Shown here: positions 9,383 to 21,250 of the stretch, piece after piece
Position numbering within the stretch: position 1 is the stretch's first letter
How the letters are laid out: each line of letters starts with the position of its first letter
Assembly (NCBI RefSeq): GCF_900114835.1
Contig: NZ_FOUJ01000001.1
Span: forward strand, 372,001 to 436,000
DNA: 64,000 nt
Origin: Methanolobus profundi
GTDB lineage: Archaea > Halobacteriota > Methanosarcinia > Methanosarcinales > Methanosarcinaceae
Reading direction: 5' to 3'
Notes under the pieces: generated by a model
Databases searched by the model: none
Seen by the model: only the letters and a program-made list of their open reading frames with translations
What the model was told of the DNA's origin: nothing
Program-made: the position numbers and the translations under genes

Positions 9383-10720
9383 TCAATACTCAGGCTCCTC
9401 AACTTTTCCCATAAAGAGTATGCATCCAGTCCGTTTATCTTCTATGATGAACAGGAAAGGATGGTCTGCTTTGAATTCCAGTACTTTTTCTGAGGGAACT
9501 ACGGCACAGTCAACTGCTTCAATTGCTGTAGCAGCAGCAGCTTCCGTACCCTTTTCCTGCACATCAATGAATGCCTGGTGGATTACATCATCTAACCATA
9601 GCATGTAATCCTCTGGCACCATCTCTGAGAAATTTGCCCTAATACCAAAAGCATCCACTATTCCCATGTCCTGCAATGTTTCTGGCAATTCGGTTTTAGT
9701 ATCGATTTTGAATTTAGGTAACCAAGTTTGTACCGGATATTGGGAATTCATGGAAGATTTAAGTCTGGTATATTCAGAAAGAGTGAAACTGTCTTCAAAT
9801 TCTCCGATGTCATTTTCTTCTGGAAGCACAATATACATGCATAGATCATTACCTTTGTACGGCAGTTCCACAATCTTTGCGTTTTTACTTTCACCATAAC
9901 TGAAATACTCTTGGATATACATCATATCCACAGGAGTTCCATCTTTACTTGAAGAAGAATTATAAAAGATTCTTTTTTCCGTATTTGTTGTATCAAATTC
10001 ATTCATCCATTTTCCTTTAAAATAAACAGCATTTGTAATGATTATGGCTGTGTCTATGGTTATCAAATTCTCTGGAATCAGATATTTGATTTTATCGTTT
10101 GTTTTTGAAGCAACCCATTCATTGATGATCGTTCTGGACTCTTCCGGTTTACCTCTAAAGTCAATATTTGTTACATTTCCTTCATAGTATTTTTTTGAAT
10201 TTTGTACAAATTGTTGATTCAAAGGATACTCTTTTCGAACCCAGAGGGCATTTGCAGTTTTCAGATCATAGCTATCATCATTTGAATTGATAGTATCCAT
10301 CATATCTTTCGAAGTCTTTTCAAGAATAGGTTTGCTTAGTGGATAATTGAACACATATGCTATCTCTTCCTGTGTAGCACCTTCAGCACCATCATAACAG
10401 ACAGCCATTGCAGTAAAAATGCTGTATGGTGAGAATACCAGATTCTCTTCTTTTGTGAGATTTAAATACATATCAAAAGCAAACGCATTGTTTGCAGTTG
10501 CGATATCATAATCATCGGCTGAGTATGCATATATCATGGTAGCTTTGTCTATAGAATCTGTTTCTGTATGCATGGCCGGAGGGATGCTATTTACGTTATC
10601 AGATTCCATGGAGTTTGTGCTTAATTCTATTTCAGAGCTTGTATCATTTTCGATGCAACCAATGCACAAGAAAACAAAAAGACAAAATGATACTGTTTGT
10701 ATAAATTTTTTATCAATCAT
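9383..10720 (-). CDS. secreted serpin-family protease inhibitor lipoprotein
   Basis: 445 residues with a lipoprotein-like signal (FCLFVFLCIGC) followed by a short linker and a full serpin domain (~60-445): NLVFSPYSIFTAMAVCYDGAEG at the start of the fold and HPFLFIIEDKRTGCILFMGKV at the end. The hinge EKGTEAAAATA (389-399) has the small residues needed for loop insertion, so it should be an inhibitory serpin. By alignment to the antitrypsin loop, P1 falls on Cys405 (VDC|AVV). Serpins trap serine or cysteine proteases by irreversible covalent complex formation. It lies 88 bp downstream of a PepSY-like gene and a clan CD-like protease gene on the same strand, so it may inhibit that protease. The target is inferred. 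Confidence 0.92.
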   Translation of the reverse strand: MIDKKFIQTVSFCLFVFLCIGCIENDTSSEIELSTNSMESDNVNSIPPAMHTETDSIDKATMIYAYSADDYDIATANNAFAFDMYLNLTKEENLVFSPYSIFTAMAVCYDGAEGATQEEIAYVFNYPLSKPILEKTSKDMMDTINSNDDSYDLKTANALWVRKEYPLNQQFVQNSKKYYEGNVTNIDFRGKPEESRTIINEWVASKTNDKIKYLIPENLITIDTAIIITNAVYFKGKWMNEFDTTNTEKRIFYNSSSSKDGTPVDMMYIQEYFSYGESKNAKIVELPYKGNDLCMYIVLPEENDIGEFEDSFTLSEYTRLKSSMNSQYPVQTWLPKFKIDTKTELPETLQDMGIVDAFGIRANFSEMVPEDYMLWLDDVIHQAFIDVQEKGTEAAAATAIEAVDCAVVPSEKVLEFKADHPFLFIIEDKRTGCILFMGKVEEPEY

Positions 10721-14277: not shown

Positions 14278-14888
14278 ATGTTCTATGCCGCGTGAAAGAG
14301 CTCTCCCAACTTGAAGATATATTCAATGCTCCTTCTTCATCTCTTGTTGTTTTCTATGGGAGAAGACGTGTGGGAAAGACAGAGCTGAGCAAAGAGTTTG
14401 TCAAGAATAAAAAAGCCTTTACCTTTTTGTGGAGACGAAAAGTGAAGAACTTTTATTGCGTGATCTGGAAGTTGAACTTGGGACCATAACAGGTATCAAG
14501 CCACGTTTGGACAGTTTTGATGATTTTTTCACTTTCATATTTAGAATGCAGGAAAAACTGGTGATCATACTTGGCGAGTTTCAGAATTTTACTAAAGTGA
14601 ATCCGGATCTCTATTCCAAATTTCAGGAATAGGTGGAAAAAAGAAACAGAGATAGACCTTATTGCTTTTGACAAAACTAGCCTTAGTGCTCTGTTCTGTG
14701 AAGTAAAATGGAAGCATCTGTCAGAAAAAGGGGCCTTAAACATAATAGAGGATCTGAGGTCTAAATCAAAAGAAGTGGAGGGTACATGGAACCCTAACTA
14801 CTGCCTTATAGCTAAAAAGATTGGAGGAAAAGAGAAAATGGATTTCCTTGCTCTGGATCTGGACGATATCAAGATAGAGTGTACGTAA
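14278..14888 (+). pseudogene. decayed archaeal ATPase (PF01637/DUF234 family)
   Basis: Family members begin MFYDRxxEL and carry a GRRRVGKT P-loop. Here ATGTTCTAT (14278) is followed by a 1-base loss, after which the right frame resumes (VKELSQLEDIFNAPSSSLVV, FYGRRRVGKTELS). A second frameshift lies near 14430 (METKSEELLLRDLEVE...). After LYSKFQE (14630) the middle of the gene is missing and the DUF234 C-terminus follows (RWKKETEIDLIAFDKTSLSA...FCEVKWKHL), ending at TAA 14886-14888. A full-length gene would be ~1.4 kb, so at least two frameshifts and a large deletion are present. Not expected to be functional. Confidence 0.85.
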
Positions 14889-14916: not shown

Positions 14917-15279
14917 TCATGAGAATAAACTCAATTTCTTTGTTAATTTATCAATATCTTCACTCTTCATGGGGAAGAAACCCAATGCTGTAATTGTCCC
15001 GGGTTCCACTTCTGTCCTTCCAGCATCGCGTACAAGTTCACAGATATATCCTTCATTAATGGCTTTGTCCCTGAAGTTCAACAATTTGGTTCGATTCTTG
15101 ATCTTCAGAACAACTTTCTTTTGTTGTTTTCCATCATCGAACCATTCTTTAATATCATCAAGACGGTCCAGATTTTTGAGGATCGGAGTTATAGATGCAT
15201 GGGCAACCTGAACTCCAAGCTTCCCGGGAGACATTTCCACATCTTCAGGTATCACTATTACTTGTTTATATTCCCACAT
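14917..15279 (-). CDS. pth2: peptidyl-tRNA hydrolase, archaeal type (Pth2)
   Basis: 120 residues, the usual length. YKQVIVIPEDVEMSPGKLGV, QVAHASI, KKVVLKI and a C-terminal DAGRTEVEPGTITALGFFP are the conserved Pth2 blocks. The enzyme hydrolyses the ester bond of peptidyl-tRNAs released from stalled ribosomes, recycling tRNA in the cytoplasm. GAAGGAAT precedes the ATG. A single-copy core gene, it stands isolated among decayed and accessory genes, which suggests that the accessory genes were inserted around it. Confidence 0.95.
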   Translation of the reverse strand: MWEYKQVIVIPEDVEMSPGKLGVQVAHASITPILKNLDRLDDIKEWFDDGKQQKKVVLKIKNRTKLLNFRDKAINEGYICELVRDAGRTEVEPGTITALGFFPMKSEDIDKLTKKLSLFS

Positions 15280-15553: not shown

Positions 15554-15754
15554 GTAATGTAGTATATTTTGAGTATATATTCTGATGAGCCTAGTGAGGT
15601 GAAAGTGAATATATCTGTTTCTATTGTTGGCCATAACAAAAGTGTTTTTTGAATAGAGGAAAAGCCTTGCAAGAAACTTTAAGAAAAAGTCCTGATGCAT
15701 TTAGTGAGCCTCTTGTTGCGCATTATCTTCAACACTATATGGGGAAAGGTTAAA

Positions 15755-15775
15755 GGTAAACATAATATGTTTACC
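15755..15775. promoter_or_regulatory. perfect 10-bp-arm palindrome upstream of the MCM-like pair
   Basis: The arms GGTAAACATA and TATGTTTACC are separated by a single A. The palindrome is ~125 bp before the MCM-like gene and includes a TATA-like core. It has the form of a dimeric repressor operator, perhaps autoregulation of the replication-like module. No second copy was noticed in the window. Confidence 0.5.
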
Positions 15776-15900
15776 CTTATAATCAACATGCACCGGCTCA
15801 GTTATCCTTATGTATGAGAAGTTTTTAATGTAAATTGAAAGTTTCAAAATATCCTCAAAGAATTGTATTGAACGTTATCATCAATTTGAAAGGTGCTAAT

Positions 15901-16641
15901 ATGGAAGATAACATTCCCATAAATGTAAGTGATATTCGAAGTAAACATCTTCACAAAGAAATAGTTGTGAAGGGTTTGGTTTATGAAATGAACATGGTGC
16001 AACCTAAGATTCAAAAAGCTGCATTTAAATGTCAGCAATGTGGTGCAATTATCTATGAGGATGTACTGGAAGAACCAGAAATTTGCAGTAAATGTCAAAA
16101 AAATGCCCAATTTAAATTTATAGAAGAAAAATGCAAATTTATAGATCATAGAGAAGTAATACTAGTTGAAATCCCCAGTAGATTTGATAATCCATCTACA
16201 AAGTATTCTCTTAAGATTGAGCTTGAAGATGATAATGTAGATATTGTAAAAGTAGGGGACGTTATACAAGTAACAGGAATGCTTAGAACATCAACTATTC
16301 CTAAAAAGAACAGGAAAGCTCCTGAATTTATATTCTCTGCCGACACCATACATACGATTGGGCAATATGGATCTTACTCAAACAGGGTTGTTTATGAAGA
16401 TCTACTAGAATCTAATAACGATAAAATAATATCGCAAAGAGACCGGATAAAAATATTAAAAGATACTATACAAGAGCTTACTGATCTTTCTCCAGAAGGC
16501 AAAGCTAAAGTTGAAGATGTATATGAGAGAGTATCAACGTCTGGTATTGAAAAAGATGATGCAGAATCTCTTGTAGATAGGATGCGCAGGTCTGGTGATA
16601 TAATCCTAATAGATGGTCAATTTTTAAAACGGATAGAATAG
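15901..16641 (+). CDS. MCM-like protein without AAA+ domain (OB/zinc N-domain plus winged helix)
   Basis: 246 residues from ATG 15901, which has AAAGGTG upstream; the frame is open from 15835 but that extension lacks a site. Residues ~8-150 match the MCM N-terminal OB domain: IRSKHLHKEIVVKGLVYEM, zinc ligands C44/C47 and C62/C65, KCKFIDHREVILVEIP, and LEDDNVDIVKVGDVIQVTGML. Residues ~195-246 (LSPEGKAKVEDVYERVSTSG then DDAESLVDRMRRSGDIILI) match the C-terminal MCM winged helix. The ~330-residue ATPase core normally between them is absent. It probably binds single-stranded DNA or replicative MCM. It is the first gene of a pair with 16676. MCM relationship is clear; function is inferred. Confidence 0.82.
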   Translation: MEDNIPINVSDIRSKHLHKEIVVKGLVYEMNMVQPKIQKAAFKCQQCGAIIYEDVLEEPEICSKCQKNAQFKFIEEKCKFIDHREVILVEIPSRFDNPSTKYSLKIELEDDNVDIVKVGDVIQVTGMLRTSTIPKKNRKAPEFIFSADTIHTIGQYGSYSNRVVYEDLLESNNDKIISQRDRIKILKDTIQELTDLSPEGKAKVEDVYERVSTSGIEKDDAESLVDRMRRSGDIILIDGQFLKRIE

Positions 16642-16675
16642 GTATTTCTGAATTATAAATAGAGGGGGCATTGAA

Positions 16676-17905
16676 TTGACTGAAAGAAATTATGGTTTTC
16701 AAATCTCAGGGATTGAATATTACACTACCTATGAGAAGGAAAATTGTGGTTTTGTACGGTTTGATGGTCGAAGTAAAAGAATATTTTATCTTGATTGTTA
16801 TCCAGGTTATTCCATTAAAAAAGATAAGTACGTGGTAGCAGAGGGCGAAGTTCCTGAAAATAACGATCTTATAGAAATAGTGTCCTTTGAAACTGATAAG
16901 CGTCCTATACCAACAAGGGATGGATTTGAATATGCTATTACAAAAACCGTTCACAAGTGGAAAAAAGTAGACCCTCAGAAGATAATCACCAGAAAACCGT
17001 TACCTTCTGAAGAGTTTACAAATTATTTCACATACCCTTTCATCTCTGACAGTAAATATGATACAGCTAAATGTCTGGCTATGTATGCAGTTTCAAGTTA
17101 TGTCCAAGGGTATGATGGTGTAGGTGGTATTCATTCAGGAGTTAAAATACATGATAAAAAGGTCACTGTTCTAAACAGGTTGCTATATGGAATTCCAGAT
17201 GAATTTAGGCAAAAAAGTTCTGATAAGTATTACGAGACCACTAATCAGAACAAACCATTAAATTATCAGGGTAAGTCTGAAGTAAATATCAATTATTTAA
17301 ACCCAAAGTCAATTTATGTTCATATTCCTCTTTTTCTCAACCTTGAGGTTAAAAGAAAAAGCGATTATTTGGATAATTTAAAACATATGGAACCATTGAT
17401 TCAGGCCCAGATACGTGATGCTGTTTTATTTAAACCAGATATTTCGGAAAGTATGAAAAAATATCTTGTTGATCGAACTTATGAGATGATCGAAAAATAC
17501 AAAGATCAATCTGAACGTGGTTTCTATCTTGATCTTAGTTCAACTGCAGCAAAAGTAAGTACTGCTTTAGCTAGGACAGAGTACGGTAAGAAGTTGACTA
17601 AGAAAGTGATCGATGATGGAGTTCTAACATGGATTGATAATTATGACTTTGCAACCAAAAGATTCGGGTCAAATATCAATGTGAAGGAGGAATCCAGACT
17701 TTCAAATGCTGCGCTCATGTTGTACATAACTCTTGAAGATACATATGGAATTGATATTGATATACCATTAAATGAAGCAAGAATTGTATCAAAAATGAGT
17801 GAGTGGGAGTTTGAAGGAGCTATTGCAGAGTTAAGAAGGAAGAATGCAGTGATATGTCCTGATAACTATTCTATAAGGTTGATTCCTCTCACTTTAGATC
17901 ATTGA
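16676..17905 (+). CDS. partner of the MCM-like protein, possibly a degenerate MCM ATPase core
   Basis: 409 residues starting at TTG 16676, with GAGGGGG 7 bp upstream deciding the start. No Walker A or B is present. Parts recall the MCM core and lid: YDTAKCLAMYAVSSYVQGYDG (compare the DxxxKxALxLQLFGG region), ISESMKKYLVDRTYEMIEKY and LDLSSTAAKVSTALARTEYG (compare the helical lid with the arginine finger), and a C-terminal winged-helix-like WEFEGAIAELRRKNAVICPD. It is encoded 34 bp after the AAA+-less MCM gene, so the pair might rebuild an inactive MCM-like particle. The similarity is faint and by eye. It could equally be an unrelated DNA-binding protein. Confidence 0.5.
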   Translation: MTERNYGFQISGIEYYTTYEKENCGFVRFDGRSKRIFYLDCYPGYSIKKDKYVVAEGEVPENNDLIEIVSFETDKRPIPTRDGFEYAITKTVHKWKKVDPQKIITRKPLPSEEFTNYFTYPFISDSKYDTAKCLAMYAVSSYVQGYDGVGGIHSGVKIHDKKVTVLNRLLYGIPDEFRQKSSDKYYETTNQNKPLNYQGKSEVNINYLNPKSIYVHIPLFLNLEVKRKSDYLDNLKHMEPLIQAQIRDAVLFKPDISESMKKYLVDRTYEMIEKYKDQSERGFYLDLSSTAAKVSTALARTEYGKKLTKKVIDDGVLTWIDNYDFATKRFGSNINVKEESRLSNAALMLYITLEDTYGIDIDIPLNEARIVSKMSEWEFEGAIAELRRKNAVICPDNYSIRLIPLTLDH

Positions 17906-18116: not shown

Positions 18117-18729
18117 CTAATTATCATCAATTACAAAATCATTCTCCTCTGGATTCTGTGACTGTACATAGGATAGCCATCATATAATCCATAAGTCTCC
18201 TCTATGGCTTTGTTAGGGTATGTGTGAAAGACAATAAGGATTGCATCATAATTACCCCGTAAGGTCTCTATAGAGGCGATATAAGGCTGCCTGTGTAAAG
18301 GGTCTGTTCCATCTGGATATGTATAAGCATTACTGACAGATACAGTGTTGGAATTATAGACGTAAGCATACTGTTCCTTGCTTGTCGTACGTCCTAGCCT
18401 TTCACTGACAACATAATCATATTGTGATTCATCAGAGTTAACCAGGTCCAAAAGCTCATGTAAAGCAGTTTGTGAACTGTCTCTGATCTCCTATATTGTA
18501 ATCACATCATGGGTCCTGACAATATCTGCAAGTATACCCATCACCTCTGGCTTCGATGCTTTTGTAACTTCGAATACATGGATATTGAATGCACCCACAC
18601 GTAAAGTGTCATATGCAACGGTTTTGTTTACTGTTTCAGTGAGTTCTTCAGTGGAAATCAGTATTGTCTTCTGAAATACGTCCAAATGTGAACTAATCAG
18701 AATGAAAATTGCGAGAATCTGTATTTCAT
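18117..18729 (-). pseudogene. decayed endonuclease/exonuclease/phosphatase-family (DNase I-like) secreted nuclease
   Basis: A signal-like start (ATG 18729, MKYRFSQFSF) is out of frame with the body. The body reads LRVGAFNIHVFEVTKASKPE, ILADIVRTHDVITI, then an in-frame amber (18491-18493) where the family has the conserved Gln of the QE motif, then EIRDSSQTALHELLDLVNSD, YDYVVSERLGRTTSKEQYAY, QPYIASIETLRGNYDAILI, FHTYPNKAIEE. A frameshift follows and a fragment (EENDFVIDDN) ends at 18117. The C-terminal catalytic GDFNAD/H part is missing. Lesions at both ends argue for decay, although amber could be read as pyrrolysine in this lineage. Confidence 0.75.
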
Positions 18730-19271: not shown

Positions 19272-19296
19272 GGTTTTTGTGTCACTTCGGTTTCAC
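19272..19296 (+). repeat. direct repeat unit 1 (25 bp)
   Basis: The unit includes TTTTTGTGTCACTTCGGTTT and is identical to 19332-19356; the period is 60 bp. The 35-bp spacer between the units is unique. Confidence 0.9.
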
Positions 19297-19331: not shown

Positions 19332-19356
19332 GGTTTTTGTGTCACTTCGGTTTCAC
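19332..19356 (+). repeat. direct repeat unit 2 (25 bp)
   Basis: Exact second copy of 19272-19296. Only two units are present and there are no cas genes, so it is not called a CRISPR array. Confidence 0.9.
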
Positions 19357-19403
19357 TCTTATTTAGGTAGCGTATATTGAGTGGATTTGCAAAATCCACT
19401 CTC

Positions 19404-20038: not shown

Positions 20039-21250
20039 TCAGATTGTTAAATCATTTGAATTAATAGCATTAACCATTTCTCTAGCTTTTTCACTCTGCA
20101 GAAACATCTGTAAAATTTCTGGTAGTTTATCTTCATACTTCTTAATTTCATCCTGTGCACTGTGGTCTAAAACAAGAGAACATTGTGAACAGAATTTATC
20201 TTCTGGTTTTAATACATTGCTGCATCTTGGACATTTTTTGAGAGTAACATGACGTTTATCCTCGGTCTTTAGGCCACATTTCTCAAATATTCTATCGTTC
20301 ATCTCTTGGTCTGTAAAATTGGCATAGATCTTGAACATTTGAGTTGATCCTTTTGACCAGCCAGCTCGATGCTTTATTTCTTGTTCATTGTAGCCATCAA
20401 GGATCCAATGAGTTATTGCTAGATGTCTGAAACTATGGGGATTTACACGTTTTTTTATACCAGCTTTCAAGCCAACATTTTTGATCATCACTCTTGCAGT
20501 CTTGTAGCTTAAAGGCTCCATGTTTTTATCACGGGTAACCCACAAAGGTGCTTCTGGATCATCTTTTAGTGGGTGCACAGCTAACCATTGATTGAGATAG
20601 CCAGTTGACCATGTAATTGGTATTCCTTTAGCATTCATATTTTTCTTGCTTCTTGAAGTACTTGATACGTATATAATAGCACCATACTGATTGAAATCCA
20701 CATTTTTAATACGGCATGAAGCTAGTGCTCCAATACGCATTCCACTATCTGCTAAGACCGTAATAAAAGCTTTATCTCGTGGATGTCTACATGCCTCAAT
20801 CAGTTTATCGAATTCTTCCTGTGTAAGTAGATCTTGAGGTTGTACTGGAGTTGCAAGACTTTTGAGTTTAATATTCTTGACCCATTTTGGAGGCTCATCA
20901 TCATGATACCAACGCATGAACTTCTTAACAAATTTTTTGTAATTTCTGATACCTCCTTGGGAAAGACCTTTTTCATCTTCAAGGTGCATTACAAGTTTCT
21001 CAAAGTCCATCTGGTCAAGTTCAATGATGTCTTTATTTATCCCAATAGCACGTAGGTAACTCAACATGCGTGTACTGTAGTTAACATAACCTGTAATCGT
21101 GCTTTTTGCCAGTCCTTCATGTCTACAGGATACAACAAACTTCTCCAAAAGGTCGATGTTATCCTGGCCGATATCTGCCTTACGCAATCTTTCCATTGCC
21201 TGTACAAAGCCCGAATCTGAACTGTGGATATCATCTACACTTTTTGTCAT
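20039..21250 (-). CDS. tyrosine recombinase (integrase) with C-terminal zinc ribbon
   Basis: 403 residues. A SAM-like core-binding domain (~30-120) precedes the catalytic domain with R172 (DSGMRIGAL), H272-x2-R275 (HSFRHLA), W298 and nucleophile Y309 (KIYANFT). A C-terminal zinc ribbon (C340/C343, C354/C357) follows, then a helical tail, a composition frequent in archaeal and haloarchaeal integrases. It cuts and rejoins DNA at attachment sites through a 3'-phosphotyrosine intermediate. It sits at the boundary between the AT-rich accessory region and ordinary genes, so it may have integrated that region. No tRNA att site was found next to it. The ATG at 21250 is the first of the frame. Confidence 0.93.
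   Translation of the reverse strand: MTKSVDDIHSSDSGFVQAMERLRKADIGQDNIDLLEKFVVSCRHEGLAKSTITGYVNYSTRMLSYLRAIGINKDIIELDQMDFEKLVMHLEDEKGLSQGGIRNYKKFVKKFMRWYHDDEPPKWVKNIKLKSLATPVQPQDLLTQEEFDKLIEACRHPRDKAFITVLADSGMRIGALASCRIKNVDFNQYGAIIYVSSTSRSKKNMNAKGIPITWSTGYLNQWLAVHPLKDDPEAPLWVTRDKNMEPLSYKTARVMIKNVGLKAGIKKRVNPHSFRHLAITHWILDGYNEQEIKHRAGWSKGSTQMFKIYANFTDQEMNDRIFEKCGLKTEDKRHVTLKKCPRCSNVLKPEDKFCSQCSLVLDHSAQDEIKKYEDKLPEILQMFLQSEKAREMVNAINSNDLTI

Follow-up and report, generated by a model that had tools for sequence, protein, structure and literature searches.

Two motorless MCM paralogues in an integrase-flanked island of Methanolobus profundi, one of them from a conserved Walker-less family of class II methanogens

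Introduction

Little is known about how archaea assemble MCM rings, load them onto DNA and remove them again. Several MCM relatives that depart from the replicative helicase have been described: MkaMCM2 of Methanopyrus kandleri (PDB 3F8T) is an MCM homologue that is inactive and carries natural internal deletions (PMC2933578), haloarchaea encode C-terminally truncated MCMs of 312-315 aa that were described as consisting of the N-terminal domain only (PMC3972481), and eukaryotic MCMBP, which contains an MCM-like domain without Walker A, promotes MCM2-7 assembly (PMC9018068). Here, we analyse a 64,000-nucleotide stretch of the Methanolobus profundi genome (contig NZ_FOUJ01000001.1, positions 372,001 to 436,000; hereafter the window), in which two neighbouring genes, gene 1 (P0001) and gene 2 (P0002), encode MCM paralogues that both lack the motor; the genes lie in an AT-rich island flanked by an integrase. 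Gene 2 is MCM-derived, an identity that is well supported, and its family is kept by selection in class II methanogens. Comparison genomes are cited by G numbers and their loci by L numbers.

Results

Gene 2 is a compact MCM-like protein without Walker motifs

Gene 2 starts 34 bp past the gene 1 stop codon and has the following layout:

16676..17905, + strand: gene 2 (P0002, 409 aa), Walker-less MCM-like protein, with a TTG start behind GAGGGGG
16709..16966, + strand: predicted N-terminal OB-like beta domain (residues 12-97), without a zinc ribbon
16973..17425, + strand: shrunken AAA-like core (residues 100-250), without a P-loop
17447..17665, + strand: region homologous to the MCM AAA-lid (residues 258-330)
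17705..17881, + strand: C-terminal winged helix, collinear with MCM (residues 344-402)

Single-sequence searches with gene 2 gave no convincing family match in Pfam, NCBIfam or PHROGs, and nothing or chance matches only in phage records, IMG/VR and GTDB contigs. Relatives were first obtained by searching related genomes, and the link to MCM became visible only with profiles of the family. The family profile retrieved 39 matches from the PDB, the first 12 of which, and most of the others, are MCM chains (best E 1e-5), aligning over the lid and winged helix; MCM_lid was matched in five of 16 family members, and an hhalign comparison with 58 archaeal MCMs (E 1.3e-5) placed the lid and winged helix of both in collinear order. 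When 394 genomes were searched in six frames, the matches beyond the family itself were nearly all to frames of roughly 700 aa or longer (E 3e-8 to 1e-4), aligned at profile positions 258-410, and those checked by eye (for example in G225, G410, G233, G420 and G422) fall in each genome's mcm.

The predicted fold points the same way. An AlphaFold2 model built from 48 sequences (predicted local distance difference test score, pLDDT, 87.2; predicted template modelling score, pTM, 0.79) was compared with known structures using Foldseek, and all 50 of the 50 best matches were MCM chains (E 4e-10 to 6e-8, about 360-535 columns). MCMs had also ranked first with an earlier, poor model made from 16 sequences (pLDDT 62). 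These results uphold the description of gene 2 in the initial annotation as a protein that has no Walker motifs yet recalls the MCM core and lid.

The lid and winged helix of an MCM helicase are thus present in gene 2, while Walker A, Walker B and an intact AAA+ core are missing. The core, at about 150 residues, leaves no room for the MCM Walker B region and the helix-2 insert, and neither Walker A (GxxxxGK[ST]) nor a CxxC motif or zinc ribbon occurs in any of the 48 family members examined, so that at the N-terminus an OB-like fold is predicted with no CxxC in place of the zinc-bearing OB domain; this predicted region contributes to the fold match with MCM. Gene 2 is compact but complete: the one MCM-like chain carries an OB-like domain, what remains of the core, a lid and a winged helix.

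Gene 1 joins an MCM OB domain directly to an MCM winged helix

The upstream gene has a different composition:

15901..16641, + strand: gene 1 (P0001, 246 aa), AAA+-less MCM with OB, zinc ribbon and MCM winged helix, ATG start at 15901
15928..16290, + strand: MCM_OB domain with zinc ligands C44, C47, C62 and C65
16399..16629, + strand: MCM-type C-terminal winged helix, 45% identical to host MCM

Gene 1 matches Pfam MCM_OB over residues 10-130 (2.8e-24) and solved archaeal MCM N-domains (E down to 5e-17), and Cys 44, 47, 62 and 65 are invariant in a comparison across four AAA+-less relatives. Residues 167-243 share 45% identity with the winged helix of the host's own MCM, and in a relative an MCM_C match (8.6e-7) exceeds the Pfam cut-off. 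The OB domain is joined straight to the winged helix, and the AAA+ core of about 350 residues is absent. Measured against an MCM helicase, gene 1 has the OB domain with its four zinc cysteines and the winged helix, and lacks the AAA+ core, exactly as first annotated. The profile searches proposed at that stage thus identified gene 1 through MCM_OB and linked gene 2 to MCM through its lid and winged helix.

The OB domain is only 31% identical to that of the host's own MCM. This low identity, together with relatives in other genomes, rules out that gene 1 is a recent deletion of the local mcm; neither this outcome nor an unrelated fold for gene 2, either of which would have overturned the initial annotation, was found. 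Gene 1-type proteins are present in G004, G461, G082, G408 (two), G450 (two), G451 and G322, and G060 carries a zinc-less version. In a tree of OB and winged-helix columns, which is tentative owing to long branches, the gene 1-type proteins of Methanosarcinaceae cluster (support 84/87) separately from the local mcm, and that of G082 is placed with its own lineage.

The gene 2 family is conserved under purifying selection

Members of the gene 2 family are about 410 residues long. The libraries searched contain neither a name nor a model for the family, and no published description was found in the literature searched, whose coverage lies mostly outside subscription journals. Homologues were found in 16 of 100 related genomes in a first search, in 31 of 112 genomes of the taxonomic family by profile, and in 38 of 394 Halobacteriota genomes with a 48-row profile (counted from the listed rows; 37 with a smaller profile). 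Among the named records are Methanolobus, Methanosarcina, Methanolinea and Methanoregula, and one homologue, annotated as a 'hypothetical protein', lies on plasmid pMETHO01 of Methanomethylovorans hollandica.

Across 24 close pairs, the ratio of nonsynonymous to synonymous substitution rates (dN/dS) of the gene 2 family is 0.05-0.15, indicating strong purifying selection, compared with 0.03-0.05 for mcm of the same or sister genomes; in the AAA+-less mcm family it is mostly 0.25-0.4, a weaker constraint. Selection was measured on both families rather than on the window copies, for which no close relative exists. This, and broken copies elsewhere (G009, G234 and G461), would suit a reading of the pair as decaying mcm fragments without function, which we consider very improbable, since both window genes are intact with ribosome-binding-like sites and dN/dS lies well below 1 in both families.

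The two genes are not halves of one MCM

The initial annotation interpreted the pair as an MCM taken apart into two genes. This interpretation does not hold: the gene 2 family mostly stands without a gene 1 type, the gene 1 family mostly without gene 2, and gene 2 is complete on its own, so the two genes do not together make up a single divided MCM. That gene 2 supplies what gene 1 lacks was likewise rejected, its family being found mostly alone.

Conserved co-occurrence, suggested in the initial annotation as a check, gave a divided result. Among the 112 family genomes, gene 1 types are present in eight, gene 2 types in 31 and both in four, against 2.2 expected, which is not significant (p = 0.15). 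Adjacency, on the other hand, exceeds chance: the genes adjoin in two of the four genomes that have both, namely the window and G461, for which a rough two-neighbours-in-3000 model gives a probability of about 3e-6. In G461 the AAA+-less mcm stands tail-to-tail with a frame-broken gene 2 homologue, and in the window the two genes are probably co-transcribed. About 10 kb from the G461 pair lies an Orc1/Cdc6-like protein (L203:3728-4648, Cdc6_lid 2e-12), the P-loop of which (GGTGVST) is without its lysine.

At the 53 gene 2 family loci, we found an integrase at a few, parA nearby at two, orc1/cdc6 at one and an AAA+-less mcm at two. The orc1/cdc6 gene, in G026, ends at the first base of the gene 2 homologue (TIGR02928 3e-45, Cdc6 lid and winged helix). 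The tie of gene 2 to initiation genes is recurrent but loose, and linkage to integrases, which the initial annotation proposed to survey, appears not to be general.

In Methanomicrobiales the gene 2 homologue comes after a conserved HTH-like (helix-turn-helix-like) gene of 136-199 aa (L073, L074, L076, L077, L083, L084, L126, L127, L128), which by eye only recalls the N-terminal domain of archaeal PheRS alpha. This neighbour, and the winged helices and OB-like folds kept in both proteins, could indicate DNA-binding regulators unrelated to helicase function, repurposed for transcription or nucleoid roles; we judge this quite unlikely, as the conserved lid region and the MCM order of OB, core, lid and winged helix point to MCM-like contacts.

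The window pair lies in an AT-rich accessory island

Two further features define the surroundings of the pair:

15751..15779, no strand: near-perfect palindrome (13 of 14 bp paired), 121 bp upstream of gene 1, candidate operator
20039..21250, - strand: tyrosine integrase carrying a zinc ribbon, close to the right-hand edge of the AT-rich island, listed for context

The island has a G+C content of 33-38%, against 40-48% to its right, and the pair lies 2 kb from the tyrosine integrase. It stands in place of the upstream neighbour of the vWA gene (21507), a neighbour conserved in four relatives. Because the island replaces this conserved neighbour and contains an integrase, the window copy is accessory; many other gene 2 family copies are stable chromosomal genes.

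Such surroundings bear on the possibility of a replication takeover by a mobile element, in which the pair, or gene 2 with Orc1/Cdc6, would bring host MCM to the element's origin, and chromosomal copies would be integrated ones. The island with its integrase and displaced vWA neighbour would fit, as would the homologue on pMETHO01, the integrases near several other gene 2 family copies and parA near two, and mobile archaeal MCMs are well known (PMC3307487, PMC3984812). We nevertheless find a takeover rather doubtful, given that most copies stand alone at chromosomal loci, several of them common to sister species (for example by topA and ilv genes), with dN/dS near 0.1, and that there was no match in phage records or IMG/VR contigs.

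Motorless subunits could instead act as an inhibitor or immunity factor that poisons the MCM rings of incoming plasmids or viruses, or brakes host MCM in a dominant-negative manner. Dead subunits with intact MCM-type interfaces would be natural poisons, the G461 copy lies in an island with restriction-like genes, presence is patchy among genomes and some copies are broken; however, most loci, judged without the PADLOC library, have no evident link to defence genes, and strong purifying selection at stable loci suits a housekeeping role better, making this role unlikely.

The perfect palindrome described upstream of gene 1 in the initial annotation is real, with 10-bp arms GGTAAACATA-A-TATGTTTACC around one central base at 15755-15775. 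It occurs once in the 3.1-Mb genome; the window holds six such palindromes, against 0.5 expected per window in first-order Markov sequences. None of the seven upstream regions of relatives examined contains one (0/7), which rules it out as a conserved part of the system. A further palindrome with 10-bp arms (19379-19401) lies past an exact 25-bp direct repeat (19272-19296 and 19332-19356) situated between the pair and the integrase.

The pair is flanked by an apparently broken archaeal ATPase gene (14292-14632) and an apparently broken nuclease-like gene (18131-18685), a sign of a decaying island. An accessory gene for peptidyl-tRNA hydrolase (PTH2) occupies 14917-15279; several copies dispersed through G010, some of them partial, and one copy in G022 are 92-98% identical to it. 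Some PTH2 copies adjoin tyrosine recombinases, and each genome retains its own divergent PTH2; the accessory gene is an odd mobile cargo, and it was rejected as a component of the system since PTH2 copies move independently. The same AT-rich stretch encodes an archaeal serpin (9383-10720; PF00079, 6e-112).

Discussion

Our preferred reading, put forward tentatively, is that gene 2 may encode a protein that works with host MCM and Orc1/Cdc6 without catalytic activity of its own, similar to MCMBP, and gene 1 an accessory subunit made of N-terminal domain and winged helix. By profile and predicted fold, gene 2 is an MCM paralogue that lost the apparatus for ATP binding and hydrolysis; lid, winged helix, an OB-like domain and a reduced core are what it retained. 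Its product could bind the replicative MCM, or Orc1/Cdc6 en route to MCM loading, through the surfaces that MCM subunits use among themselves, and might in this way control ring assembly, loading or unloading, by analogy with Walker-less MCMBP in eukaryotes, instead of unwinding DNA. Gene 1 would then be a second non-motor subunit, able to dock on the MCM N-tier or on origin DNA, and the island may have recruited the pair to steer host MCM.

Several observations weigh against the reading of gene 2 as an MCM-derived partner. Over the query, its Foldseek TM-scores reach no more than 0.33-0.39, which reflects a different arrangement of domains and the loss of much of the MCM core; at the sequence level the link to MCM is limited to the lid and winged helix, and it is the predicted fold that supports assigning the OB and core regions. 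A replication gene is not next door at about 40 of the 53 loci, and many related genomes have no family member; the family is therefore not essential to replication in general.

An extension of this reading, possible but on balance doubtful, is that class II methanogens have an archaeal counterpart of MCMBP, which would chaperone, load or unload MCM with Orc1/Cdc6, and that some islands add a second motorless MCM to redirect replication. If true, archaea as well as eukaryotes, with MCMBP, would have come to control MCM through a motorless relative. A conserved non-catalytic MCM paralogue in methanogens, for which genetic tools exist, would make the handling of archaeal MCM rings directly testable.

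Compared with the replicative helicase (MCM2-7 and archaeal MCM), gene 1 has the OB domain, zinc ribbon and winged helix in common, and gene 2 the lid and winged-helix sequence and the overall fold order; unlike the helicase, both are without Walker A, Walker B and a complete AAA+ core, and gene 2 is also without the zinc ribbon. MkaMCM2 resembles gene 2 in being MCM-derived, with Walker A lost and internal deletions (PMC2933578), but it was described from a single species, whereas gene 2 is shorter, zinc-less and part of a broad conserved family; the gene 2 profile has no significant direct sequence match to MkaMCM2 (3F8T, E 0.68). The haloarchaeal truncated MCMs are, like gene 1, an MCM N-terminal region without AAA+, from which gene 1 differs in being shorter and in keeping the C-terminal winged helix. 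MCMBP and gene 2 both have an MCM-like domain without Walker motifs; the taxa differ, and no MCMBP family model is among the Pfam or NCBIfam matches of gene 2. We treat MCMBP as a working analogue of gene 2 and do not assign gene 2 to the MCMBP family.
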